NCBI GenBank assembly: GCA_903873705.1
Contig: CAIQPK010000071.1
Coordinates: forward strand, 1-64,000
From: an uncultured Acidobacteriota bacterium
GTDB lineage: Bacteria > Acidobacteriota > Terriglobia > Terriglobales > Acidobacteriaceae
DNA: 64,000 bases
Reading direction: 5' to 3'
Shown: positions 31,447 through 49,860 of the stretch, one piece after another
Numbering within the stretch: the first letter of the stretch is position 1
Layout: each line of letters begins with the position of its first letter
The notes under the pieces: generated by a model
What the model saw: the letters and a program-made list of their open reading frames with translations, nothing else
What the model was told of the DNA's origin: nothing
The model's database searches: none
Made by a program: the position numbers and the translations under genes

Positions 31447-32352
31447 TTATAGAGAGTTGCCGGCGGTTTGGGCGGTGGCACGGGGATTCCGGGCTGCGAT
31501 AGCGGGGTCGGGGCCGACTCCGCTGTCGAACTCCGTGTAGTTGTCGAGGTGGTCCTTGATGACCAGGTAGCACTCGCAGGAGGTTTTTTCGAGCCTGGCA
31601 GTGTCGAGGATCGTGATGACGCCGCGGGTGTAGGAGATGAGGCCCTTGTCTTTGAGGAGCTTGGCGGCGACCGAGACGGAGGGGCGGCTGCAGCCGAGCA
31701 TGTCGCCGAGAAACTCATGCGGCATGATGAAGGTGTTGTTGTGGGCGCGGTCGGCGCAGATCAAGAGCCAGCGGGCGAGGCGCTGCTCAACGTCGTGCTT
31801 GATGTTGCAGCCGGCGGACTGAGCTGTTTGGACAAGCTGGGCCTGGACGTAGGCGAGAGCGAGTGACTGGAAAAGGCCACCGAGGTCGAACTCCTTGCGA
31901 CCGATCTCGATGCCGCAGGAGTAGCCGCGACCGGCGATCTGGGTATAGATGCGGTTGAGGCTGCGCTTGGTGCCCATGAGGGCGGAAACGCCCATGATGG
32001 ACTCATAGCCGAACATGCCGACCTCGACCTGCGAGCCGTCCTTGAAAGTGGTGGTCATGGAGGCCATGCCCTCTTCCACGAAGAAGAGGTGCTCGATGGG
32101 CTCGCCGGGAAACTCGATCTCATGATTGAGTTCGAAGTTAACTTTGCGCAGCGCGAGACGGCGGATCGACTCAGCGTCCAGCGCTTTTAGAACGACGTTC
32201 ATGAAGTCGGTGGCGGGCAGGGTGGGCCTTCTATCCGGGGCGTTGTGTGCGCTAGCCGACGATGAGCCAAGTGGAACAGAATTCGGGGCCGCTGTCACCT
32301 GCCATGGTCGCGTGCGGGGCGGGGCGGCTGGCGATTGGGGAGCGAGAGGCAT
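31447..32352 (-). CDS. Crp/Fnr-family transcriptional regulator
   Basis: A 301-residue cyclic-nucleotide-binding-fold regulator. The effector domain (residues ~60-190) has FPGEPIEHLFFVEEGMASMTT and GMFGYESIMGVSALMGTKRS, with no CRP phosphate-binding cassette and no FNR N-terminal cysteines. The C-terminal helix-turn-helix is EFLGDMLGCSRPSVSVAAKLL; the CRP recognition RETVGR is replaced by RPSVSV, so it should not read the usual GTGA half site. Start 32352 is supported by GGAG spaced five bases away; Met at 32202 is an alternative without good spacing. The first 50 residues are Pro/Ala/Ser-rich and odd for the family. Divergent from the hybrid kinase across ~190 bases. Confidence 0.82.
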   Translation of the reverse strand: MPLAPQSPAAPPRTRPWQVTAAPNSVPLGSSSASAHNAPDRRPTLPATDFMNVVLKALDAESIRRLALRKVNFELNHEIEFPGEPIEHLFFVEEGMASMTTTFKDGSQVEVGMFGYESIMGVSALMGTKRSLNRIYTQIAGRGYSCGIEIGRKEFDLGGLFQSLALAYVQAQLVQTAQSAGCNIKHDVEQRLARWLLICADRAHNNTFIMPHEFLGDMLGCSRPSVSVAAKLLKDKGLISYTRGVITILDTARLEKTSCECYLVIKDHLDNYTEFDSGVGPDPAIAARNPRATAQTAGNSL

Positions 32353-38503: not shown

Positions 38504-39241
38504 CTAGCCGCTAATGGGGAAGAGGCGGTCGGAGTAGCCGAGCAGGAAGATGATGCCGATACCGAAGCTGTAGACTGCGGTGAGGCCGGTGAGGAGTGGG
38601 GTCCAGCCGGACCAGGCGCGGCCAGCGGTGAAGAAGCCCGCTACTGAGGCGGTCATGAGCGTGTTCATGGCCAGGAGACCAAGCAAGAAGAGTGCGAGCC
38701 CAATAAAACCTTTTCCTGTTCCGCCCATGTTCGCGGCGAGCAGGAAGAGTGCGAGCTGGCTGGGGGTTTCGGCGCCGAGGCCGTGGATGATGCCGATGCC
38801 GAAGCAGGTGGGTCCGTTGACGTCTGACTGCGTTGCGGTGTGGAGGAGATCGTGGCCGGTGACCCACTTGTGGCCGCGTGCGTGGAGCCAGCGGCCAGCG
38901 CCGATGAGGAGCGCGGCGCGGGACTTCGGCACTCCCTTGCGGAAGAACAGCGTGCTGAGGACGTAGATGGCGAGGACGATGAGAGTGAGTCCGACGAAGC
39001 GCTCGGACCAGCGATCCATGCTGCGCGGCAGGGCGAGTTGGAAGCCGATGACGAGGCCGCCGAGCAGAGCGACGGTGGCGGCGTGGCCGAGTGCGTACAT
39101 CAAGCCGAGGCGCATGGCGTCGGCGGTGCGGCGCTGCACGCCGGCGATGTCGGTGATGGCGGCGATGTGGTCGTAGTCGAAGCCGTGGCGGAAGCCGAGC
39201 AGGGCGCAGGAGAAGACGACGACGTTGAGCGGGGCGCTCAT
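38504..39241 (-). CDS. Nickel/cobalt permease (NiCoT/HoxN family)
   Basis: A 245-residue inner-membrane transporter that should supply nickel for the hydrogenase and possibly for LarA. The signature of the NiCoT family, RHGFDYDHIAAITD, is in helix 2 (about residues 18-31); later loops carry RHG/GHD-type motifs (VTGHDLLHTATQSD) and GIGIIHGLGAETPSQLALF. About seven helices are visible, slightly fewer than the eight of HoxN because the protein is short. It is the last gene of a minus-strand row hypA-hypB-hypC-hypD-hypE, with a 37-base gap after hypE, so it is probably in the same operon. Confidence 0.88.
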   Translation of the reverse strand: MSAPLNVVVFSCALLGFRHGFDYDHIAAITDIAGVQRRTADAMRLGLMYALGHAATVALLGGLVIGFQLALPRSMDRWSERFVGLTLIVLAIYVLSTLFFRKGVPKSRAALLIGAGRWLHARGHKWVTGHDLLHTATQSDVNGPTCFGIGIIHGLGAETPSQLALFLLAANMGGTGKGFIGLALFLLGLLAMNTLMTASVAGFFTAGRAWSGWTPLLTGLTAVYSFGIGIIFLLGYSDRLFPISG

Positions 39242-39278: not shown

Positions 39279-40339
39279 TTAGCATATGCGCGGTATCTGC
39301 TCTCCGATCTGGAGGGGAATGATGCGCGTGCCGCCGACCGCCGTCTTTGCGGCTAACAAGCCGGGGTGCTGGCTGGTGACCCGGCCGATGATGGCGGCAT
39401 CGCGGCCGTGCTCGTGCTCGCGGATGCGGGCGAGGACGGCATCGGCTACCTGGGGGGCGACGACGGCGACGAGCTTGCCTTCGTTGGGAACGTAGATGGG
39501 GTCCATGCCGAGGAGGTCGCAGGCGGACTGGACGTCGGGCAGGACAGGGACGGCGCGCTCTTCGATGAGGATGCCGACGCCGGATTGCGCGGCGATCTCG
39601 TTGAGCGAGCTGGCGAGGCCGCCGCGGGTGGGGTCGCGGAGAACATGGAGGTGGGGAGCGAAGGGGAACAGAGTGGCGACCATGGTGTTGAGGGCTGCGG
39701 TGTCGCTGCGGATGATGGTCTCGAAGTCGAGGCCTTGGCGGACGCTCATGATGGCCATGCCGTGGTCGCCGATGGTGCCGCTGACGATGATGACGTCGCC
39801 GGGGCGAGCGAGCGTGGGTGCGATGTGGATGTGGTTGGCGATGACGCCGATGCCGGCGGTGTTGATGTAGCAGCCGTCGCCGTGACCCTTCTCGACGACC
39901 TTGGTGTCGCCGGTGACGATCTGTACGCCGGCGGCGCGGGCGGCGGCGCCCATGCGATCGACGATCGCGGCGAGATGCGCGATGGGGAAGCCTTCTTCGA
40001 GGATGAAGCCGGCGCTGAGATAGAGCGGCGTTGCTCCGCTCATGGCGAGGTCGTTGACGGTGCCGTGTACGGCGAGGTCGCCGATGGAGCCGCCGGGGAA
40101 GAAGAGTGGCTGGACGACGTATGAGTCGGTGGAGAAGGCCAGGCGACCGGTTGGCGGTGGAAGGACGCAGGAGTCGGCCATGCCTTCGAGTGTGGGGTTG
40201 CGGAATGCGGGGACGAAGATGTGCTCGATGAGCTCGCTGGTGAGCTGGCCGCCGCCGCCGTGGCCCATGACGATGGTGGGGTAGTCGCGCAGGGGGAGCG
40301 GGCAGCTCCACTGAGAGAGGTCGGGTTGGGCGAGGGTGC

Positions 40340-40343
<4 letters not shown>
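39279..40343 (-). CDS. hypE: Hydrogenase maturation protein HypE
   Basis: A 354-residue AIR-synthase-like ATPase that dehydrates the thiocarboxamide on its C-terminal Cys to make the CN ligands of the Ni-Fe site. The [17 protein letters not shown] start, the [34 protein letters not shown] block (ATP site) and the C-terminus EQIPRIC with the terminal Cys are exactly as in the family. Start ATG 40343 overlaps the hypD stop by four bases, showing translational coupling. HypF provides the carbamoyl group. Confidence 0.96.
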
Positions 40344-41446
<1,103 letters not shown>

Positions 41447-41477
41447 GGCTGCGTCCCTTCTGCGATTGCGGTGAGGG

Positions 41478-41729
41478 TCATTGGGATTCACCGAGCTCTT
41501 CATCGAGGAGGCCCATTTGCTGGAAGGCGTAGAGGGTTTTCCTGGCGGAGTCTTCGTCTACGCGACTGATGGCAAAGCCGACGTGGACCATGGTGTAGTC
41601 GCCGACGGCGATGTCGGGGAGGTAAGCGAGGCAGACTTCCTTGATGATGCCTCCGAAGTTCACGCGGCCCATGCGGGTGCCGACGGCGTCGTAGATACTG
41701 ATCACTTGTCCTGGAACGGCGAGGCACAT
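41478..41729 (-). CDS. hypC: Hydrogenase maturation chaperone HypC
   Basis: An 83-residue chaperone that carries the Fe(CN)2CO unit with HypD and delivers it to the large subunit. MCLAVPGQV has the essential Cys2, and [16 protein letters not shown] and [20 protein letters not shown] are the typical OB-fold strands. It begins the minus-strand run hypC-hypD-hypE, separated from hypB by 143 bases that contain a Crp-type inverted repeat (41842-41857), so it may have its own promoter. Confidence 0.96.
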
Positions 41730-41841
41730 GGGCGTCTCCTGCTTTGAGCGGGACGGCAGGGCTGCGAGCGGGGTGGAAGGTGGGCGCGCGGCAGGCCACT
41801 GGCGAACTGCTCCATGGGAGCATAGGGCGGAGGCGATCGTC

Positions 41842-41857
41842 TGTGATTGGAAACACA
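41842..41857 (-). promoter_or_regulatory. Crp-type site upstream of hypC
   Basis: On the minus strand TGTGTTTCCAATCACA, nine of ten consensus bases of TGTGA-N6-TCACA. It is 113 bases upstream of the hypC start, just after the hypB stop. It differs at two positions from the site at 42968-42983. Confidence 0.55.
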
Positions 41858-41872
41858 GTCGGCTTGGAAACG

Positions 41873-42547
41873 TCAGATTGTGACGAAGTCTGCCTGTTTA
41901 TGTTGCTGAAGGCAGCTGAGCCACTCTTCCATGCCCGAGCCGGTTTTGGCGGAGGTAGCAAAGATTTGCATTCCGGGGCGCACGGCGCGGATGTTGGCAC
42001 AGGCGGCTTCAAGGTTGAATTCGCAGGGTTGAGCGAGGTCCATCTTGGTGATGACGGCGATGTCGGCAGAGTTGAAGATGTTGGGGTACTTCAAGGGTTT
42101 GTCTTCGCCTTCGGTGACGGAGAGCAGGACGACGCGGAGGTCTTCGCCGAGATCGTAACTGGAGGGGCAGACGAGGTTGCCGACGTTTTCGATGAAGAGG
42201 TATTCGAATTGGTTGAGGTTCCAGCCGGCGAGGTGGTCTTCGATCATTTGAGCTTCGAGGTGGCAGCGGCCGTTGGTGTTGATCTGCTTGACGGGGACGC
42301 CGGCTTCGGCGAGGCGGCGGGCGTCGTTGTCGGTGGCGAGGTCTCCGACGAGGGCGGCGGTGGGGGTCCCCTGCTCGCGGAGGGTGCGGAGGGTGCGCTG
42401 CAGGAAGGCGGTCTTGCCGCTGCCGGGGCTGGAGACGAGGTTGACGGTGAGCAGGCCGGCGTGGTGAAGGCGTTGCCGCAAGTGACGTGCGATCTCGTCG
42501 TTCTTGTTCAGAATGCCTTTGCGGATTTCAAGTACGCGGGTTTCCAT
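41873..42547 (-). CDS. hypB: Hydrogenase nickel-incorporation GTPase HypB
   Basis: A 224-residue SIMIBI GTPase that inserts Ni with HypA. Walker A is LVSSPGSGKTAFLQ, the CHLEAQMIEDHL metal/switch segment and IENVGNLVCPSSYDLGE with its conserved metal-binding Cys are present, and TKMDL is the guanine motif. The N-terminal CxxCGC and histidine-rich nickel store found in many HypBs is absent; the protein begins directly METRVLEIRKGILNKNDEIA. Start 42547 overlaps the hypA end by 20 bases. Nickel may be provided by the NiCoT permease. Confidence 0.95.
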   Translation of the reverse strand: METRVLEIRKGILNKNDEIARHLRQRLHHAGLLTVNLVSSPGSGKTAFLQRTLRTLREQGTPTAALVGDLATDNDARRLAEAGVPVKQINTNGRCHLEAQMIEDHLAGWNLNQFEYLFIENVGNLVCPSSYDLGEDLRVVLLSVTEGEDKPLKYPNIFNSADIAVITKMDLAQPCEFNLEAACANIRAVRPGMQIFATSAKTGSGMEEWLSCLQQHKQADFVTI

Positions 42548-42914
42548 TTTTCCCGTCCTCTGCATCGGGTACGTCGATTTCGATGGATTCAATTTCCAGC
42601 TCGCGGCCCTGGCGCACGTCGCCGCTGGGGGTGTTGCAATGGGGGCAGCAAAAGTTCTGGATGCTGGGGAGTTCGGCTTCGGCATCGCAGACGGCGCAGT
42701 AAATTCTGACGGGGAGTTCCACGACAACCAATGTGGAATCGGCCAGGAGAGTATCTGCGGTCGCGGCTTCGTAGCCGAACTCGAGGGCTCCGCGAACCAC
42801 GCCGGAGAGCACACCGAGGCGCAGGCGTACGCTGAGGACGCGCGTGGCCCCGGCAGCGAGCGCGCTCTGGGTGACGGTTTCGACCATACTGTAGGCGATC
42901 GAGAGTTCGTGCAT
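42528..42914 (-). CDS. hypA: Hydrogenase nickel metallochaperone HypA
   Basis: A 128-residue nickel chaperone. The N-terminal MHELSIAYS gives the His2 nickel ligand; the zinc site has YCAVC and FCCPHC pairs (about residues 78-100). The C-terminal tail (SIEIDVPDAEDGKNG) is a little longer than usual because it runs into the hypB overlap. It is the first gene of the minus-strand set and is divergent from hypF, with a Crp-type site in the 114-base space (42968-42983). Confidence 0.95.
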   Translation of the reverse strand: MHELSIAYSMVETVTQSALAAGATRVLSVRLRLGVLSGVVRGALEFGYEAATADTLLADSTLVVVELPVRIYCAVCDAEAELPSIQNFCCPHCNTPSGDVRQGRELEIESIEIDVPDAEDGKNGNPRT

Positions 42915-42967
42915 CGTCTGCTTCCGTTGCTGCTGGTTGATAGTAGACGCCCAGGGCAGGTAGATCA

Positions 42968-42983
42968 TGTGTTTCTGATCACA
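42968..42983 (+). promoter_or_regulatory. Crp-type site in the divergent hypA-hypF promoter region
   Basis: TGTGTTTCTGATCACA: TGTG and TCACA with six bases between, nine of ten consensus bases. It is about 54 bases from the hypA start and 46 from the hypF start, so it could control both. Confidence 0.55.
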
Positions 42984-43028
42984 GACCGTGATGGGTGGAG
43001 TGATACGGTGGAGGCATTGTCGAGTGGG

Positions 43029-45332
43029 ATGATGCCGATGAAACAACGACTGCAGATTGAGGTGCGCGGCATTGTGCAGGGCGTGGGCTTCCGTCCCCAT
43101 GTTTATCGGCTGGCCCGGCGATTTCAGCTGGGGGGGAGTATTCGGAATGGCGACCGCGGGGTAGTGATCGAGGTGCAGGGGAGGGCTGAGGACGTCGCGG
43201 ACTTTCTGGCGGCGCTGGCTGCGGAGGCACCGACGCTGGCGCGGATAGAAGCGATTGAGAGTGTCGCGATAGGGCTGGCGGAGGATTCCGAGTTTGCGAT
43301 TCTGGAAAGCAGCAAGAGTGGGCGGGCTGGGACGCTGATCTCGCCTGACATTGCGACGTGCGAGGCCTGTGTGAAGGAGCTGCTGAATCCTGAGGACCGG
43401 CGCTATCGGTATGCGTTCCTGAACTGCACGGATTGTGGGCCGAGGTTCACGATTGTGCGCGGCGTGCCCTACGATCGCGGCCTGACTTCGATGGCGGCGT
43501 TCCCGATGTGTGAGCGTTGCAGGGCGGAGTATGAGGATCCTTTGGATCGAAGATTTCATGCTCAACCTACGGCGTGCCGGGATTGCGGGCCGCAGCTGGA
43601 GCTTGTTGGCCCGGACGGCGAGCGACAGTCGGGCGACCCGGCGGGCGAGACGGTTCGGCGGTTGAACGAGGGTTGCATCGTCGCAGTTAAGGGCCTGGGT
43701 GGTTTTCATCTGGCGGTGGATGCCTTTCAACCGGACCGCGTGCGTGAGCTGCGACGGAGAAAGCATCGCGGCGAAAAGCCGCTAGCGGTGATGGTGGCCA
43801 GCGTTGCGATGGCGAGGGAGCTTTGCACGGTGAGTGGCGAGGAGGCTGCGCTGCTGGAGTCGGCACAGCGGCCTATCGTGCTGCTGCGGAAGCGCGACGA
43901 TCGCGCGGAGCTGGCGGAGGTGTATGTCGCACTGGCGGAGGATCGAAACGAAGTTGGCGTGGTGCTGGCTTACACGCCGCTGCATCATTTGTTGTTTGCG
44001 GAGGGCGGACCGGCGGCGCTGGTGATGACGAGCGGCAATTTGAGCGAGGAGCCGATCGCGATTGCGAACAGCGAGGCGATGGAGCGGCTAGGTGATATTG
44101 CCGATTATTTTCTGTTGCACAACCGCGAAATTCTGCTGCGCTGCGATGACTCTGTCGTGCGGCAGGATGCGGGAAAGATGCGTTTCATAAGGCGTTCGCG
44201 GGGGTACGTGCCATCGCCGATTCTGCTGCGGGAGCCGGTGCGACCGATTCTGGCGGTTGGCGGTGAAATGAAGAATACGATCTGCCTTTCGCGGGGGCAT
44301 CATGCTTTTCCGGGTCAGCATATCGGCGATTTGGAAAGTCTGAGTGCGTTTGAGTTCTTTGAGGAATCGATCGCTCATTTTGGGGCCATTCTCGAGGTGA
44401 AGGCGGAAGTGATTGCGCATGATTTGCATCCGGGTTACCTGGCTACGCGATGGGCGAAGAAGCAGTTGGGTGTGGAGTTGATCGGCGTGCAGCACCATCA
44501 TGCGCATATCGCGGGCTGCATGGCGGAGAACCACCTGGAGGGCGCCGTCATTGGCGTTGCGCTGGATGGGACGGGGTTTGGGAGTGATGGTCATGTGTGG
44601 GGTGGGGAAGTGTTGGTGGCGGATTTGCAGCGATTTGAGCGCGCAGCGCACCTGGCGAACGTTGCCATGCCGGGAGGAGACCAAGCTATCCGCGAGCCGT
44701 GGAGGATGGCGGTTTCGTTTTTGTGGCAGACGTTTGGCGAGGATTGGCGCAGTTCGGTGCCGCCTGACTGGCTTGTCGGAGTTCCAGAGCGCAGTGTGAA
44801 CGTGGTGGAACAGCTGTTGCGGAGCGGGGCGAAGAGTCCGCTGACGTCAAGCTGTGGCCGGCTGTTCGATGCGGTGTCGGCAATGATTTGTCAGCGGGCT
44901 ACGGTGAGTTATGAAGCCCAGGCAGCGATGGCTTTGGAGGCGTGTTGCGAGGAGGATGCGGAGGGCGGTGCTTATCCTTTCGCCATTGAGGGCGAGGGGT
45001 GCCTGCAGATTCGGACCGAGCCGCTGTTTGCTGCACTGGCTCAGGATCTTTGTGACGGTGTGGCGCGCGGCGTGATGAGCGGGCGCTTTCATCGCGGCCT
45101 GGTGGAGGTGCTGTCGGAGACCGTGAAGCGTGTTGCGCTGCGCACAGGTTTGCAGCGCGTGTGCCTGAGCGGCGGGAGTTTTCAGAACGCGATACTGCAA
45201 CGCGGGTTGGAAGCGAAGCTGACGGATGCGGGATTTGAAGTGTTTACGCACACGCAGGTGCCGCCCGGCGATGGTGGCTTGAGCCTGGGGCAGTTGGCGA
45301 TTGCGGCAGCGCGGAGTGGCGAATCAGTCTGA
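43029..45332 (+). CDS. hypF: Carbamoyltransferase HypF
   Basis: A 767-residue enzyme that activates carbamoyl phosphate and transfers the carbamoyl group to HypE. Domains in order: acylphosphatase (GVGFRPHVYRLARRF, residues ~10-95), two zinc-finger blocks (CEACVKELLNPEDRRY, NCTDCGPRFT, CERCRAEY, CRDCGPQL, ~110-185), a YrdC-like domain (CIVAVKGLGGFHLAVDA, ~205-385) and a C-terminal Kae1-like domain with VQHHHAHIAGCMAENH and CLSGGSFQNAIL. Three in-frame ATGs lie at 43029, 43032 and 43038; the choice among them is uncertain. Divergent from hypA, and followed 13 bases later by the convergent cytochrome b gene. Confidence 0.95.
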   Translation: MMPMKQRLQIEVRGIVQGVGFRPHVYRLARRFQLGGSIRNGDRGVVIEVQGRAEDVADFLAALAAEAPTLARIEAIESVAIGLAEDSEFAILESSKSGRAGTLISPDIATCEACVKELLNPEDRRYRYAFLNCTDCGPRFTIVRGVPYDRGLTSMAAFPMCERCRAEYEDPLDRRFHAQPTACRDCGPQLELVGPDGERQSGDPAGETVRRLNEGCIVAVKGLGGFHLAVDAFQPDRVRELRRRKHRGEKPLAVMVASVAMARELCTVSGEEAALLESAQRPIVLLRKRDDRAELAEVYVALAEDRNEVGVVLAYTPLHHLLFAEGGPAALVMTSGNLSEEPIAIANSEAMERLGDIADYFLLHNREILLRCDDSVVRQDAGKMRFIRRSRGYVPSPILLREPVRPILAVGGEMKNTICLSRGHHAFPGQHIGDLESLSAFEFFEESIAHFGAILEVKAEVIAHDLHPGYLATRWAKKQLGVELIGVQHHHAHIAGCMAENHLEGAVIGVALDGTGFGSDGHVWGGEVLVADLQRFERAAHLANVAMPGGDQAIREPWRMAVSFLWQTFGEDWRSSVPPDWLVGVPERSVNVVEQLLRSGAKSPLTSSCGRLFDAVSAMICQRATVSYEAQAAMALEACCEEDAEGGAYPFAIEGEGCLQIRTEPLFAALAQDLCDGVARGVMSGRFHRGLVEVLSETVKRVALRTGLQRVCLSGGSFQNAILQRGLEAKLTDAGFEVFTHTQVPPGDGGLSLGQLAIAAARSGESV

Positions 45333-45345
45333 TCGCGTAACGCGG

Positions 45346-46083
45346 CTATTTGGTTTCGGGAGCTTCGGCCAGTTCCTTCTTGAGGTGGTCCTGCGGGACG
45401 AACTTGTAGCCGCTGAAGATGCTGTCCATCAAGCCGCTGTGTTCTTCGATAGAGACGAGTATGGCGGTGTAGAGGTGATGGATAAAGAACATCCCGAAGC
45501 CGAACATGATGAGGAAATGAATTTCGCGAAGCCACTGGATGTCGATCAAGCGGGGCAGCCAGCCGATGAGGACGGTGAGCAGATGGCTGCCGAGGATTTG
45601 ACTGTACAACGCGAAGCCGGTGAGGATTTCGACGATGGCCATGAGATAGATCACGGCGTAGGCGGCGCCTGCCAGCGGGTTGTGTCCGATGTAGGCGACG
45701 GGAGACCAGGCGACGAAGGTGTAGAACTTCGCGATGGCCTTCATACCTTTCCAGCGATTGCGGGTGGTGGGAATGTACTGGCTGATCCGCACCCAGCGGT
45801 TGCCGAAGAAGAACCAGACCATGCGTAACAGGATGGCAAAGCTGAAGGCAAAGGCGGAGAGCAGGTGTACGAACCGGATGGTGCCCATCACGTAGGCGGT
45901 GTGTCCTATTGCGAGAAAATAGGGCGAGTGCATGTAGTAGCCGGTGATCGATAGCGATACGATGGTGAGCACCATTACCCAGTGGCTGATGCGGATGGGC
46001 CACTCCCAGACATAGAGGCGGACCTGGTTGGGTGCTGGCTGTCTCCAGGGGGCGGCGTCAGCGGTGAGTTGTGTGTGCTTCAT
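45346..46083 (-). CDS. hyaC: Hydrogenase cytochrome b subunit (HyaC-type)
   Basis: A 245-residue di-haem b-type membrane anchor that takes electrons from the small subunit to the quinone pool. Four hydrophobic helices carry the expected histidines: VWEWPIRISHWVMVLTIV (helix 1), IRFVHLLSAFAFSFAI, and the last helix HFLIMFGFGMFFIHHLYTAIL with closely placed His residues; the family motif around RWKGMKAIAKFY is present. The C-terminal tail is soluble. It lies 27 bases downstream of the small-subunit gene on the same strand, clearly co-transcribed. Confidence 0.92.
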   Translation of the reverse strand: MKHTQLTADAAPWRQPAPNQVRLYVWEWPIRISHWVMVLTIVSLSITGYYMHSPYFLAIGHTAYVMGTIRFVHLLSAFAFSFAILLRMVWFFFGNRWVRISQYIPTTRNRWKGMKAIAKFYTFVAWSPVAYIGHNPLAGAAYAVIYLMAIVEILTGFALYSQILGSHLLTVLIGWLPRLIDIQWLREIHFLIMFGFGMFFIHHLYTAILVSIEEHSGLMDSIFSGYKFVPQDHLKKELAEAPETK

Positions 46084-46110
46084 GGAGTGTGCTCCGTACG
46101 GCTGACGGTC

Positions 46111-47244
46111 CTATGCTGAGGTGTTGGTGGGCTCGTGAGTGTCGCTGTCAGCGGGGGGCGGCTTGAGCCTGTCGCGGACCATATTGGCGCCCACCTGGAG
46201 GGCCGTGGCGCCGGCGATGACTGCGGTTGCGGTCCAGCCGATGTCCTCGGCTTTGACGTCGACTCCGAAGCCGGGCACGGTGGGGAGGCGGTCGTAGAAG
46301 GGCGACTTGGTGTCCCAGAAGCGATGCGAAGCGCAGGCGATGCATCCGTGGCCGGCTTTCACCGGCCAGCTTGTGCCTTCGTTCCAGCGCACGGTTGGGC
46401 AGTTGTAGGTGGCCTCCGGGCCTTTGCATCCCATCTTGTAAAGGCACCATCCTTTGCGTGCACCTTCATCGCCCCATTCCTGGACGTAGCGTCCGGCGTC
46501 GTAGTGGGCGCGGCGTTCGCACTGGTCGTGAATGACGTTGCCGTAGGCGAAGAGGGGACGGCGGTATTGGTCCAGCGCGGGGAGCTCATGGAAGGTGAGA
46601 TAGTGCACGAGGACGGCAGCGGTGTTGACGGGATTGTGCGGGCAGCCGCCGAGGTTGATGAGGTTCTTGATGCCGGGTACTGCTTCCTGGAGGCCTACTG
46701 CGCCGGTGGGATTGGGGCTGGCGCTGACTATGCCGCCGTCCCATGCGCAGGCGCCTATGGCGATGTTGACGGCGGCGTTCGCGCAGACCTGCCTGGCGAT
46801 GTCGAGGGCTGTGCGGCCGCCTATGGTGCAGTAGACGCCGTTCTCGGCCATGGGGATCGAGCCTTCCACGACGCAGATGTATTCGCCGGCGCACTCGCGC
46901 ACGACGCGTTCGAGGGCGTCGGAGGCGTGCTGACCGGAGCCGGCCATGATGACCTCGTGGTACTCCCAGGAGAGCATCTCGATGACGATGTCTCCGACGT
47001 TAGGGCTGCCGGAGCGGAGCATGGATTCGGAGTTGCCGGTGCAGTCCTGGAACTCGAGCCACACGAGCACGGGACGCTTCACTTGTTCCATAGCCTTGGA
47101 GATGGCATGGGCGTAGCGGTGGGGGAGAGCGAGGGTGGAGGCCATGAGTCCGCAGAACTTGACGAACTGGCGGCGGGAGACGCCGCGCGCCTCCAGCGCC
47201 GATCTGAAGGGGGTGGGCGAATCGACTTGCAGCGATGTATTCAT
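46111..47244 (-). CDS. hyaA: Uptake [NiFe]-hydrogenase small subunit (group 1), Tat-exported
   Basis: A 377-residue Fe-S subunit of a periplasm-facing uptake hydrogenase. The twin-arginine signal is SRRQFVKFCG (residues 23-32). The proximal-cluster region reads LEFQDCTGNSE: Cys68 is present but Asn71 stands where CTxC is expected; other cysteines are at 118, 124, 139, 154 and 166. Distal and medial cluster motifs follow (GCPHNP, HDQCERRAHYD, GWCLYKMGCKGPEATYNC, GHGCIACASHRFWD). A C-terminal helix (TATAVIAGATALQVGANMV) anchors it. Start 47244 begins the homology. It is transcribed away from the large-subunit gene; cytochrome b follows. Exact subgroup (1d, 1e or 1f-like) is not decided here. 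Confidence 0.93.
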   Translation of the reverse strand: MNTSLQVDSPTPFRSALEARGVSRRQFVKFCGLMASTLALPHRYAHAISKAMEQVKRPVLVWLEFQDCTGNSESMLRSGSPNVGDIVIEMLSWEYHEVIMAGSGQHASDALERVVRECAGEYICVVEGSIPMAENGVYCTIGGRTALDIARQVCANAAVNIAIGACAWDGGIVSASPNPTGAVGLQEAVPGIKNLINLGGCPHNPVNTAAVLVHYLTFHELPALDQYRRPLFAYGNVIHDQCERRAHYDAGRYVQEWGDEGARKGWCLYKMGCKGPEATYNCPTVRWNEGTSWPVKAGHGCIACASHRFWDTKSPFYDRLPTVPGFGVDVKAEDIGWTATAVIAGATALQVGANMVRDRLKPPPADSDTHEPTNTSA

Positions 47245-47340
47245 CAGGACGTCCAGACTAAGCGCGACCGCGCTTCCATCACGCCGCATGCCGCGGCACA
47301 AAGCTGGGACAGATTATGCGGACGCCGTCATGCCTCGTGC

Positions 47341-47356
47341 AGTGACGGTCATCACA
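47341..47356. promoter_or_regulatory. Crp-type site, small-subunit side
   Basis: AGTGACGGTCATCACA: AGTGA-N6-TCACA, nine of ten consensus bases. About 97 bases upstream of the small-subunit start codon. Confidence 0.55.
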
Positions 47357-47461
47357 GGCGATCGATTTGGCTGCGCGGGCTGCTTTCGCGGTCGTTCTCT
47401 CGACGCCTGCATGGCGTGCGGAGGAAGAGTTTTTCGCGCAGGGGATGGTTCCTGCTCTTAA

Positions 47462-47477
47462 CGTGACAGGCGTCACC
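47462..47477. promoter_or_regulatory. Crp-type site, large-subunit side
   Basis: CGTGACAGGCGTCACC: exact GTGA-N6-TCAC core with C on both flanks. About 132 bases upstream of the large-subunit start codon. Confidence 0.5.
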
Positions 47478-47608
47478 GACACTCGCTTTTGGCGCGCGTA
47501 CCGTTTTCCCCGTCGATGTATTTTCGAAGGCCGATGAGCCTTCAGCCGGCTCGCCATCCTGAATGGAGCCGGCAATATGCTTCGGCAGGCTTGCACGCGG
47601 AGGGTACG

Positions 47609-49330
47609 ATGGCGCGAATTGTGATTGATCCTGTGACACGCATTGAAGGTCACCTTCGGATCGAGGTTGAGGTTGAAGGTAAGCACGTCGTCGATGCGTG
47701 GAGCTCGGGCACGATGTTTCGTGGGATCGAGAAAATCCTGCGCGGGCGGGATCCTCGCGAGGCATGGATCTGGGCGCAGCGGATTTGCGGTGTGTGCACG
47801 ACGGTTCATGCGCTGGCGTCAGTACGGGCCGTGGAAGATGCGCTCGGCGTTGAGATTCCCGAGAACGCTGCGCTGGTGCGGAACATTATTGCGGGCAGCC
47901 AGAATGTGCACGACCACATTGTGCACTTTTACCATCTGCACGCACTGGACTGGGTTGACGTTACGCTGGCGCTGAAGGCTGACCCGGCGAAGACGTCGTC
48001 GATTGCGCAGTCGATTTCCAATTGGCCGAAATCGAGCGCGACGTATTTTGCGGAAGTGCAGAACCGGGTTAAGACGCTGGTGAACAGCGGACAGCTTAGC
48101 CTCTTCTCGAGCGGTGACTGGGGGCACCCGGCGTATCAGCTGCCGCCTGAGGTGAACCTGCTGGCTGTGGCTCACTACATTGAAGCGCTTGATCTGCAGC
48201 GTGAGTTCATCCGCATTCATGCTGTGCTGGGCGGCAAAAACCCGCATCCGCAGACGTACCTGGTGGGCGGCATGGCTACCGGCATGGATGGCAACGAGCC
48301 GGGAGCGGCACTCAATCCGGTGACGATTACGTTGCTTAGCCAGCTGGTACAGAATGCCAAGAAGTTTGTTGAGCAGGTTTATCTTCCTGATGTTGTCGCC
48401 ATTGCGGGCTTTTACAAGGAGTGGTTTAACTACGGGCAGGGCATTGGGAACTACATGGCTTACGGGGACTACACGCTGGGTAGTTTGAAAGATACGGCGT
48501 CGTTTGAGTTTCCGCGGGGCATTATTCTCGATCGCAACCTGGCCGTGCTGCATCCTGTCGATCCCGGGCTGGTGACCGAGTCTGTTGTGCACTCCTGGTA
48601 TACGTACGCGGAGGGCGACCAGGTGGCGAAGCACCCGTCGCAGGGCGAAACATCTCCGAAGTACACCGGGCCGGCTCCGCCGTTTCAATTTCTGCACACG
48701 GACGAGAAGTATTCGTGGGTGAAGTCTCCGCGCTACGATGGCAAGCCGATGGAGGTTGGCCCGCTGGCAAGGACGCTGATTGCGTATGCCAAAGGCAGCG
48801 AACCGGTGAAGAAGATCGTGGATGGTGCGCTGGCCAAGTTGAACCTTCCACTGACGGCATTGTTCTCCACGATGGGGCGCATTGCGGCTCGCGCGCTGGA
48901 ATCGCAGATCATGGTGGACAACCTGGAGACATGGGTGGCCAAGCTGGACGACAACATGGCCCATGGCAATGTGAAGATGCATAACGGAGAGATGTGGAAC
49001 CCGGATAGCTGGCCGAAGTCGTGCCAGGGGTTTGGGCTGCACGAGGCGCCGCGGGGATCGCTGGGCCACTGGGTTGAGATTGAAAACAAGAAGATCGTGA
49101 ACTACCAGGCGGTGGTGCCTTCAACGTGGAACGCAGGGCCGCGCGATGCGAAGGGTCAGCGTGGAGCGTATGAGGCTTCGCTGCAGGGCACTCCGATTGC
49201 GGATCCAACGCGGCCGCTGGAAGTGCTGCGCACGGTGCATTCGTTCGATCCGTGCCTGGCGTGCGCGGTGCACGTGGTGAACGCGGAAGGTGTTCCGTAT
49301 GGGAACGACGTGATGGTGCCGGTAGCATGA
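47609..49330 (+). CDS. hyaB: Uptake [NiFe]-hydrogenase large subunit (group 1)
   Basis: A 573-residue catalytic subunit carrying the Ni-Fe(CN)2CO site. The N-terminus ARIVIDPVTRIEGHLRIEVEV is typical. The L1 motif RICGVCTTVHA (about residues 57-67) and the L2 motif DPCLACAVH near the C-terminus give the four nickel Cys ligands; the 18 residues after the His (VVNAEGVPYGNDVMVPVA) are the tail removed by the protease. ATG 47609 is chosen because GGAGGG is four bases upstream; a long in-frame extension to 47489 has no homology. The stop overlaps the protease start. It is unusual that the small subunit is on the opposite strand. Export would be by hitchhiking on the small subunit. Confidence 0.96.
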   Translation: MARIVIDPVTRIEGHLRIEVEVEGKHVVDAWSSGTMFRGIEKILRGRDPREAWIWAQRICGVCTTVHALASVRAVEDALGVEIPENAALVRNIIAGSQNVHDHIVHFYHLHALDWVDVTLALKADPAKTSSIAQSISNWPKSSATYFAEVQNRVKTLVNSGQLSLFSSGDWGHPAYQLPPEVNLLAVAHYIEALDLQREFIRIHAVLGGKNPHPQTYLVGGMATGMDGNEPGAALNPVTITLLSQLVQNAKKFVEQVYLPDVVAIAGFYKEWFNYGQGIGNYMAYGDYTLGSLKDTASFEFPRGIILDRNLAVLHPVDPGLVTESVVHSWYTYAEGDQVAKHPSQGETSPKYTGPAPPFQFLHTDEKYSWVKSPRYDGKPMEVGPLARTLIAYAKGSEPVKKIVDGALAKLNLPLTALFSTMGRIAARALESQIMVDNLETWVAKLDDNMAHGNVKMHNGEMWNPDSWPKSCQGFGLHEAPRGSLGHWVEIENKKIVNYQAVVPSTWNAGPRDAKGQRGAYEASLQGTPIADPTRPLEVLRTVHSFDPCLACAVHVVNAEGVPYGNDVMVPVA

Positions 49331-49860
49331 TGCCGGTGGAAGATCTCTCGGGCGGGCGCATCTGCGTGATGGGGCTTGGAAACCTGATGTGTACCGACGA
49401 TGCAGTGGGTATGCTCGCCGTTCAGTTGCTGCAGAGCGATCCGCGGCTGCCTGGTCATGTGATGGTGATCGAAGGCGGCACTTTGGGGCTGGACCTGCTT
49501 GGCCGGCTGGATGGGGTGACTCGTCTGCTGGTGCTGGATGCGGTGGACTGTGGGGTGACCCCTGGAAGTGTGATGCGGTTTGAAGGCGAGGCGATCAGAC
49601 GGCTGCCGACGGGAAGAAGCGTACATTTGCTGGGGTTGTCTGACCTGCTGAGCGTGATGCTCCTGTTGGACGCGGCGCCGATGGAGGTGGTTTTGCTGGG
49701 CGTGCAGCCTGCGTCAACGGAGCTGGGAACAACGCTGACTTCAACCGTGGAGCAGGCCCTGGACGTGTTGTTGGCGGGGGCACTGCAGCAGGTGTTGACG
49801 TGGAAGGTTGATGAAAAGCGGGAAAGGCTTGCCAGCCCTGGCGTTGCCGTTGGTGTGTGA
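49327..49860 (+). CDS. hyaD: Hydrogenase maturation endopeptidase (HyaD family)
   Basis: A 177-residue nickel-dependent protease that cuts the large-subunit tail after the L2 His. ICVMGLGNLMCTDDAVGML has the GxGNxxxxDDxxG pattern with the first metal Asp; VLDAVDCG contains the second Asp, and SVHLLGLSDLL supplies the His. The ATG at 49327 overlaps the large-subunit stop by four bases, so it is coupled; ATG 49330 is an alternative. The C-terminal basic extension (LTWKVDEKRERLASPG) is longer than in E. coli HyaD. Confidence 0.92.
   Translation: MMPVEDLSGGRICVMGLGNLMCTDDAVGMLAVQLLQSDPRLPGHVMVIEGGTLGLDLLGRLDGVTRLLVLDAVDCGVTPGSVMRFEGEAIRRLPTGRSVHLLGLSDLLSVMLLLDAAPMEVVLLGVQPASTELGTTLTSTVEQALDVLLAGALQQVLTWKVDEKRERLASPGVAVGV

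Follow-up and report, generated by a model that had tools for sequence, protein, structure and literature searches.

According to the available passages of PMC545781, HcpR of Desulfovibrio is a member of the Crp/Fnr family that carries an arginine at position 180 (Arg 180) and is associated with the palindrome TTGTGA-N6-TCACAA, and its energy-metabolism targets include one hydrogenase operon. In Rhizobium leguminosarum, as described in the accessible parts of PMC3534401, an FnrN/FNR-type promoter drives hypBFCDEX microaerobically and hupSL is under the control of NifA. For another type of hydrogenase, a difference in expression between hhyS and hhyL is ascribed, in the portion of PMC8027828 that was available, to different promoters and presumably to different, unnamed factors. 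The present work deals with four palindromic sites of the Crp/Fnr class, starting at positions 41842, 42968, 47341 and 47462, which lie in the [NiFe]-hydrogenase gene block of an uncultured bacterium of the family Acidobacteriaceae (assembly GCA_903873705.1, contig CAIQPK010000071.1, forward strand). The entire stretch analysed, viz. positions 1 to 64,000 of this contig, is referred to as the window, and other genomes, contigs and loci are denoted by numbers preceded by G, C and L, respectively. The genes for the small and large hydrogenase subunits are here named hupS and hupL. The names CRP1 and CRP2, used for two Crp/Fnr-type proteins of this genome, are likewise coined here and bear no relation to the mycobacterial Crp1/Crp2.

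The system considered here resembles that of HcpR in its GTGA-class palindrome, in the arginine of the recognition helix and in having energy-metabolism and hydrogenase genes as its predicted targets (PMC545781, same passages). Its likeness to the FnrN-dependent hyp genes lies in the Crp/Fnr-type control of hydrogenase maturation genes, but the motif here is of the GTGA class and is not an FNR box. The FNR box reads TTGAT-N4-ATCAA and the conserved sites described below read TGTGAY-N4-RTCACA, so they do not conform to it. The layout, viz. hydrogenase and maturation genes controlled by an FNR/CRP-type protein, is of a known type, here with an HcpR/CRP-like specificity, and what appears to be new is its occurrence in Acidobacteriota; no description of a hydrogenase operator or regulator of this sort from this phylum was found in the literature searched, to which subscription papers mostly did not belong.

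From the sequence comparisons reported below, it is probable that the hydrogenase block is controlled by a Crp/Fnr-family activator, which acts through operators at both the hup and hyp genes, with CRP1/CRP2 as the regulators and low oxygen as the signal. In the proposed mechanism, the activator would bind to TGTGAY-N4-RTCACA at 47341 and 47462 and would activate two divergent promoters, one for hupS-cytb and one for hupL-hycI. Each hup operator lies about 42 nt upstream of the predicted transcription start, which is a class II arrangement. The same regulator would have weaker operators in the sites at 42968 and 41842, and hypAB, probably hypF, and hypC to hypE would come under the same control. 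CRP1 and/or CRP2 would serve as the activator, in response to a low-oxygen or redox signal, and either paralogue may be the one that acts.

Placement and quality of the four sites

An earlier note on this DNA had placed sites of the GTGA-N6-TCAC class at these four positions. All four coordinates are correct and the core is perfect at 47341 and 47462, but each of the two hyp sites carries one mismatch in it. The predicted operator of hupS (47341..47356, AGTGACGGTCATCACA), the centre of which is 104 nt upstream of the hupS start, has the best position weight matrix (PWM) score of the window, viz. 20.3, and the predicted operator of hupL (47462..47477, CGTGACAGGCGTCACC; centre about 140 nt upstream of the hupL start) ranks fourth with a score of 12.4. 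The operator-like sites in the hypA/hypF gap (42968..42983, TGTGTTTCTGATCACA) and in the hypB/hypC gap (41842..41857, TGTGATTGGAAACACA) score 14.7 and 14.5, with shuffle p values of 0.004 and 0.002, respectively.

Promoters are needed in three gaps of the block, viz. those between hypB and hypC (143 nt), between hypA and hypF (123 nt) and between the small- and large-subunit genes (364 nt), and each of the four sites lies, as had been claimed, in one of them. When at most one mismatch to TGTGA-N6-TCACA is allowed, there are only three matches in the window (41842, 42968 and 47341), one for each of these gaps. The reversed pattern, used as a control at the same stringency, gives 27 matches in the 4.18 Mb genome, so that about 0.41 would be expected in 64 kb and 0.004 in the 630 nt that the three gaps make up together; the genome-wide number of sites for the true pattern is 51 compared to these 27. 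The matrix was trained on 47 distinct sites located near CRP1 genes (ten loci, nine of them from other genomes), with no sites from the hydrogenase block among them. When the 64 kb were scanned with this matrix, the four sites occupied ranks 1 to 4 (scores 12.4 to 20.3), and the next position scored 7.8. The statement that the tightly coupled genes are free of such sites also agrees with the scan, as among the top 14 positions of the window none with a score above 7.5 falls within the hydrogenase genes.

Conservation of the sites at hydrogenase loci

The arrangement in which hupS and hupL are transcribed divergently was compared in six loci, viz. those of the window, G007, G044, G027, G005 and Silvibacterium. 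A site is present upstream of hupS in all six of them and upstream of hupL in all six. In five divergent loci (L117, L118, L119, L050 and L120) the distance between the centre of the hupL site and the start is 160-167 nt, compared to about 140 nt in the window. In the 32 acidobacterial loci where hupS and hupL are on the same strand, a site scoring at least 12 precedes hupS in 16 and hupL in none, and no such site was found at the 14 hupSL loci from other phyla. These counts include some near-duplicates (L121 and L049 are of equal length and have the same site; L045/L053, L059/L076 and L063/L065 look similar), and L037 and L069 were excluded as copies of L119 and L120. Based on this distribution, a predicted operator would accompany both halves where the hup genes are in divergent halves, and it is very likely that the hup sites of the window are genuine operators. 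The earlier note had made the conservation of the sites in orthologous regions a test of its claim, and it holds at both hup genes of the six divergent loci; the hyp gaps considered below are mixed, with a site in 6 of 11.

The sites also extend to more distant hydrogenases. Of eight loci of relatives that have upstream DNA and whose small subunits are 39-46% identical, an upstream site is present in five (L015-L018 and L030, but not L014, L019 and L029). At 12 loci with hydrogenases of 23-30% identity (L021-L028 and L032-L035, some of them from one genome), no upstream site scoring at least 12 was found, the best score being 9.4; our guess is that these are group 1h hydrogenases.

Spacing between the sites and -10-like elements

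In the window, the -10-like hexamer CATAAT (47313..47318, minus strand) is located 22 nt past the hupS operator, and a weak -10-like hexamer of the TANNNT type, TACCGT (47499..47504, plus strand), is located 21 nt past the hupL operator. In the hupS promoters of G007, G044 and Silvibacterium (L117, L118 and L050) the hexamer is AATAAT at 22 nt, and in that of G005 (L120) the same hexamer is found at 21 nt. All six hupL promoters have a TANNNT hexamer 21-22 nt past the site. In a set of 33 oriented promoters, in which sites that agree over the 40 bases following them were entered as one, the mean match to TATAAT peaks at an offset of 22 nt (2.76 compared to 1.29 overall), and TANNNT occurs at 20-23 nt in 13 of the 33, compared to at most 3 for runs of four offsets outside 17-26. 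In class II activation the site is centred at about -41.5, and the spacing seen here would place the site centre near -42 relative to the predicted start, i.e. in the class II position.

The two sites in the hyp gene cluster

The site at 41842 is part of a 19-mer, GTCTGTGATYRGAAACACA (41839..41857, plus strand), a second copy of which is present at 42968-42986 on the minus strand. No third copy is found in the genome when up to 2 mismatches are allowed, and the two are oriented alike relative to hypC and hypF. Around the site at 42968, the -10-like hexamer TACTAT (42940..42945, minus strand) is found at exactly 22 nt in the direction of hypA, and the TANNNT hexamer TACGGT (43004..43009, plus strand) at 20 nt in the direction of hypF.

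In the corresponding gaps of relatives, a site scoring at least 10 is present in 6 of 11, viz. in five of the six that lie on the hypC side and in one of the five on the hypA side. The scores on the hypC side are 20.7 before hypC in G381, 20.6 before hypC in G046 (which has a different hyp set), 12.5 between hypB and hypC in G005, 12.1 after hypB in G014 and 10.1 between hypB and hypC in G160; the single site on the hypA side precedes hypA in G014 and scores 15.5. In G014 and G008, hypB is followed by a gene other than hypC.

The conservation of the hyp sites is patchy and they are the weaker sites; on balance, it is likely that they are operators of the same regulator. A rather less likely explanation is that the hup sites are true operators but the hyp elements are something else, viz. 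a 19-mer shared by virtue of another factor or, in the case of 41842, a decayed relic of an NHL-repeat-like coding sequence. The 19-mer is asymmetric, unlike the symmetric hup sites, and it is unique in the genome to this pair. The hypA/hypF gap of G005 lacks a good site despite a hypB that is 85% identical, and this gap is one of five without a site, the others being those before hypB in G160, before hypA in G008 and G381, and after hypB in G008. Further, no TANNNT hexamer is found at 20-23 nt from 41842 in the direction of hypC, and the hypB-hypC match of G005 overlaps an open frame that is weakly similar to NHL repeats (PF01436; E 0.0009, 19.6 bits with a cut-off of 20). However, both hyp sites outscore every background position in the window, the site at 42968 has its hexamer at the expected distance towards hypA, and on the hypC side only one of the six gaps is without a site, though hypB in G014 and G008 is not followed by hypC. 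A single motif class was retained for all four sites, with the hyp pair forming a distinct type within it.

The frame in G005 (L203, 5531-5773) takes up the greater part of the gap between hypB and hypC and runs up to the start of hypC. Its peptide matched, below E 0.05 among the fetched loci, only its own two copies. No NHL frame was seen in the hyp gaps of L233-L236, as judged by eye rather than by search.

Candidate regulators

Four proteins of this genome have a Crp-type helix-turn-helix (PF13545) that scores over the Pfam cut-off. Two of them, CRP1 and CRP2, are both encoded on contig C72 outside the window and have RETVTR recognition helices, which the Crp-type proteins of the window and of contig C93 do not have. 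The Crp/Fnr-type gene of the window (31447-32352, minus strand) was considered as the regulator and rejected as unlikely, its helix reading CSRPSVS and lacking R-E---R. In CRP1, the sensor domain of the cyclic nucleoside monophosphate type (PF00027) and the helix-turn-helix (PF13545) both score over their cut-offs. All 15 proteins of an alignment covering 13 loci have a RETV[TN]R helix, with the Arg/Glu/Arg pattern that goes with GTGA recognition. A C-x2-C-x8-C motif is present at the N-terminus of CRP1 and CRP2 and in 14 of the 15 aligned proteins, with a further cysteine that is invariant in all 15. In FNR proper, the corresponding motif is C-x2-C-x5-C plus a fourth cysteine, and these go with a 4Fe-4S cluster; the spacing of the cysteines is different here.

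The occurrence of these proteins parallels that of the sites. The loci of the CRP1 orthologues in nine relatives contain 2-7 palindromes each within 6.6-16 kb. Of 51 genomes where both were sought, there are 127 exact sites in the 17 that have a match to CRP1 at E <= 1e-70, 38 in the 13 with only CRP2-like matches and 8 in the 21 with none or a weak match; the number of exact sites differs between the CRP1 genomes and those with none or a weak match (Mann-Whitney p 6.7e-8), and within the genus rho is 0.78. In G067, hupS and a CRP1-like gene (35% identical) are transcribed divergently with a palindrome in between, in Bryocella CRP2 is 1.3 kb from cytb-hupS, and in Silvibacterium a CRP1-like gene whose product lacks the N-terminal cysteines is about 4 kb from cytb. 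These features point to CRP1 and/or its paralogue CRP2 as the most likely regulator, which appears to be FNR-like.

It is improbable that the block is instead governed by classical Crp with cyclic AMP (cAMP) when the cells are starved of carbon or energy. The palindrome is a point of likeness to the E. coli system, as the consensus for CRP of E. coli likewise reads TGTGA-N6-TCACA (PMC545781, passages available), and an indirect activation of enterobacterial hydrogenase genes by cAMP-CRP is cited in the accessible part of PMC13098282. However, CRP1, which alone was scanned, leans towards FNR in the profile models (62.4 bits for the FNR model compared to 48.6 for the CRP model, both far below the cut-offs), and slightly so against PDB sequences, where FNR-type chains lead with 52.4 bits and a mycobacterial-type Crp/Fnr chain has 50.6. 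The cAMP-CRP proteins have an Arg-Ser/Thr pair for the cAMP phosphate. The R-T pair of the mycobacterial-type chain 3h3u, which we take to be the cAMP-binding pair, corresponds to Y-E in the alignment with CRP1, and R-[S/T] is absent from this place in all 15 aligned proteins. E. coli cAMP-CRP has an R-E---R recognition helix and a class II geometry, but its effector-site residues are not kept in CRP1, which has N-terminal cysteines. The Crp-like activator that the earlier note had in mind would thus be FNR-like and probably not cAMP-Crp.

The identity of the regulator with HcpR was also considered and rejected, as hcp, which is the most conserved HcpR target and is often a neighbour of the regulator gene, has no match in this genome (a match is present in 7 of the 51 genomes searched). 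In G005 (C44:26812-29276) and G020 (C10:51994-54454), hcp adjoins another Crp/Fnr paralogue, which is 22% identical to CRP1 and is perhaps the true HcpR of these genomes.

A probably wider regulon and the likely signal

The regulon looks, from the genes that follow its predicted sites, to be wider than the hydrogenase genes, which is a further qualification of the original suggestion. Of the 27 sites of this genome that were examined, 17 are intergenic. The intergenic sites precede an operon for cytochrome c, Rieske protein and cytochrome b (bc-type), a small cytochrome c gene, acetate kinase and phosphoketolase genes, the gene for CcmE (cytochrome c maturation), universal stress protein (USP) genes together with CRP1, a sensor kinase gene, and the multihaem cytochrome gene of an operon that, we presume, resembles alternative complex III. 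Other intergenic sites precede genes that have no link to low oxygen or redox, such as those for an aminotransferase-like protein, shikimate kinase and a SpoIIE-type phosphatase.

In Acidobacterium capsulatum under low oxygen, the expression of two USP genes rises 7-fold and 56-fold, respectively, and that of a sensor histidine kinase gene 84-fold (PMC11636273, in the passages found). In the present genome, USP and histidine kinase genes are located beside CRP1 among palindromes, and by analogy the response of A. capsulatum may be linked to CRP1. The passages found in PMC11636273 name no transcription factor for the low-oxygen response, and the word "hydrogenase" is absent from its main text. 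Because of the target genes in this genome and the induction of the USP and sensor kinase genes in A. capsulatum, the most likely signal is low oxygen or a redox cue connected with it.

A broader interpretation, which is put forward tentatively and as a whole, is that CRP1 and CRP2 may be the master low-oxygen regulators of Acidobacteriaceae, FNR-like but with a CRP-like DNA specificity and the unusual C-x2-C-x8-C sensor motif. Their targets would then be more than one kind of hydrogenase, the bc-type cytochrome operon, cytochrome c maturation, phosphoketolase/acetate kinase and the USPs. As part of the same interpretation, an ancestral hupSL operon may have been split into divergent halves, the second of which acquired an operator of its own, and both subunits would in this manner have come under one switch.

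Assessment of the proposed regulation

A number of observations weigh against control of the block by a Crp/Fnr-family activator. In the window, TGTGA-N6-TCACA with at most two mismatches occurs 15 times compared to 15.8 expected, and the GTGA-N6-TCAC core with at most one mismatch 20 times compared to 18.8 expected, and the genome as a whole has just 5 exact TGTGAY sites compared to 1 in the control. The seeds of the matrix were chosen at one mismatch or less, which favours the consensus by construction, and therefore it is the placement and the conservation of the sites that bear the argument. Ten of the 27 sites examined in this genome lie within predicted frames (based on crude gene calls), and 16 of the 32 same-strand acidobacterial hup loci, some of which have hypB directly upstream, are without a site scoring at least 12. 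The spacing test was framed after the first promoters had already been seen. The thresholds for CRP1 were self-chosen and the relatedness of the genomes inflates the statistics on its co-occurrence with the sites; CRP1 was sought in 51 of the 81 genomes in which sites were counted, and the other 30 include G031, G033 and G037 with 18-23 sites. Lastly, a generic sigma-70 scan finds no promoter in the hup or hyp region; however, the lack of a full -35/-10 promoter fits an activator, as an activator can replace the -35 box.

The raw density of sites over the window, when considered alone, thus speaks against the claim, but their placement and quality exceed chance. The comparison with shuffled sequence, which the earlier note had put forward as a check, is unfavourable for the raw counts and favourable when the sites are scored for quality, which sets the four apart. 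The suggestion of a regulon under a Crp-like activator is supported for the hup genes by conservation, the -10 spacing and the candidate regulators, and moderately for the hyp genes.

There is little likelihood that a protein of the same family acts at these sites as a repressor, because, although Crp/Fnr proteins are capable of repression and a site overlapping the -10 box was predicted to be repressive (PMC545781, available passages), the sites here are upstream of the -10-like hexamer at the spacing of an activator. That the palindromes are chance matches is highly improbable, and is rejected for the hup sites in view of their matrix ranks (the four sites being 1 to 4), their conservation in 6 of 6 divergent loci and their -10 spacing, even though the window counts at one to two mismatches equal those of shuffled sequences.

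Gene content of the hydrogenase block

The hyp genes on the minus strand are hypA (42531..42914; TIGR00100, 87.8 bits, just below the cut-off of 88.1), hypB (41873..42556; TIGR00073), hypC (41478..41729; TIGR00074), hypD (40340..41503; TIGR00075) and hypE (39279..40277; TIGR02124, its start inferred from the matched residues), and the last gene of this run is nickel transporter-like (38504..39241, minus strand; NicO/HoxN class, with profile matches that are all below curated cut-offs). On the plus strand is hypF (43038..45332; TIGR00143, start read from the sequence). The structural genes consist of cytb, encoding the b-type cytochrome of the hydrogenase (45346..46083, minus strand; TIGR02125), hupS (46111..47244, minus strand; TIGR00391, with a Tat-like leader read by eye) and, divergent from hupS, hupL (47609..49330, plus strand; matches to NCBIfam large-subunit models all below cut-offs, start taken from the sequence), which is followed by a gene for a maturation protease of the HycI family (49327..49860, plus strand; PF01750, start inferred).

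The relatives of the small subunit that have names include Bryocella, Silvibacterium and Granulicella, and G027 and G005 are assigned to the genus of the window. In the proximal cluster of the small subunit C-x-x-C is usual, and in HupS of the window (46900-47100) the motif reads C-[AT]-G-N, with Asn for the second Cys. The C-[AT]-G-N motif is also present, among the loci listed, in 9 relatives (L117, L118, L120, L122, L123, L038, L058, L070 and L080), and the small subunits of L014, L016, L017-L020 and L029 have CxGC instead.

HypF of the window is at most 65% identical over its length to its counterparts in 28 genomes of the genus (a fragment of 64 residues in G013 reaches 69%) and no more than 59% in a family sample (n=200). 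When the other 396 genomes of the order were searched, 5 had a close relative of HypB (E <= 1e-100). HupL is 77-81% identical among the divergent loci. Due to this scarcity of close HypF and HypB relatives, as compared to the identity of HupL, the hyp set and the hydrogenase may have different histories. In the window as a whole, the GC skew is about 0.20-0.44 across positions 1-36000, which looks unusually strong for such a length, and then falls to about 0.07-0.27.

Biological significance

Few groups of soil bacteria are as common as the Acidobacteriota. The operator, its class II layout and the two candidate regulators make the question of how their hydrogenase genes are controlled testable in cultured relatives, such as Silvibacterium bohemicum S15 and Bryocella elongata. 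Further, the split operon with a predicted operator for each half would be a neat example of regulation that tracks a rearrangement.

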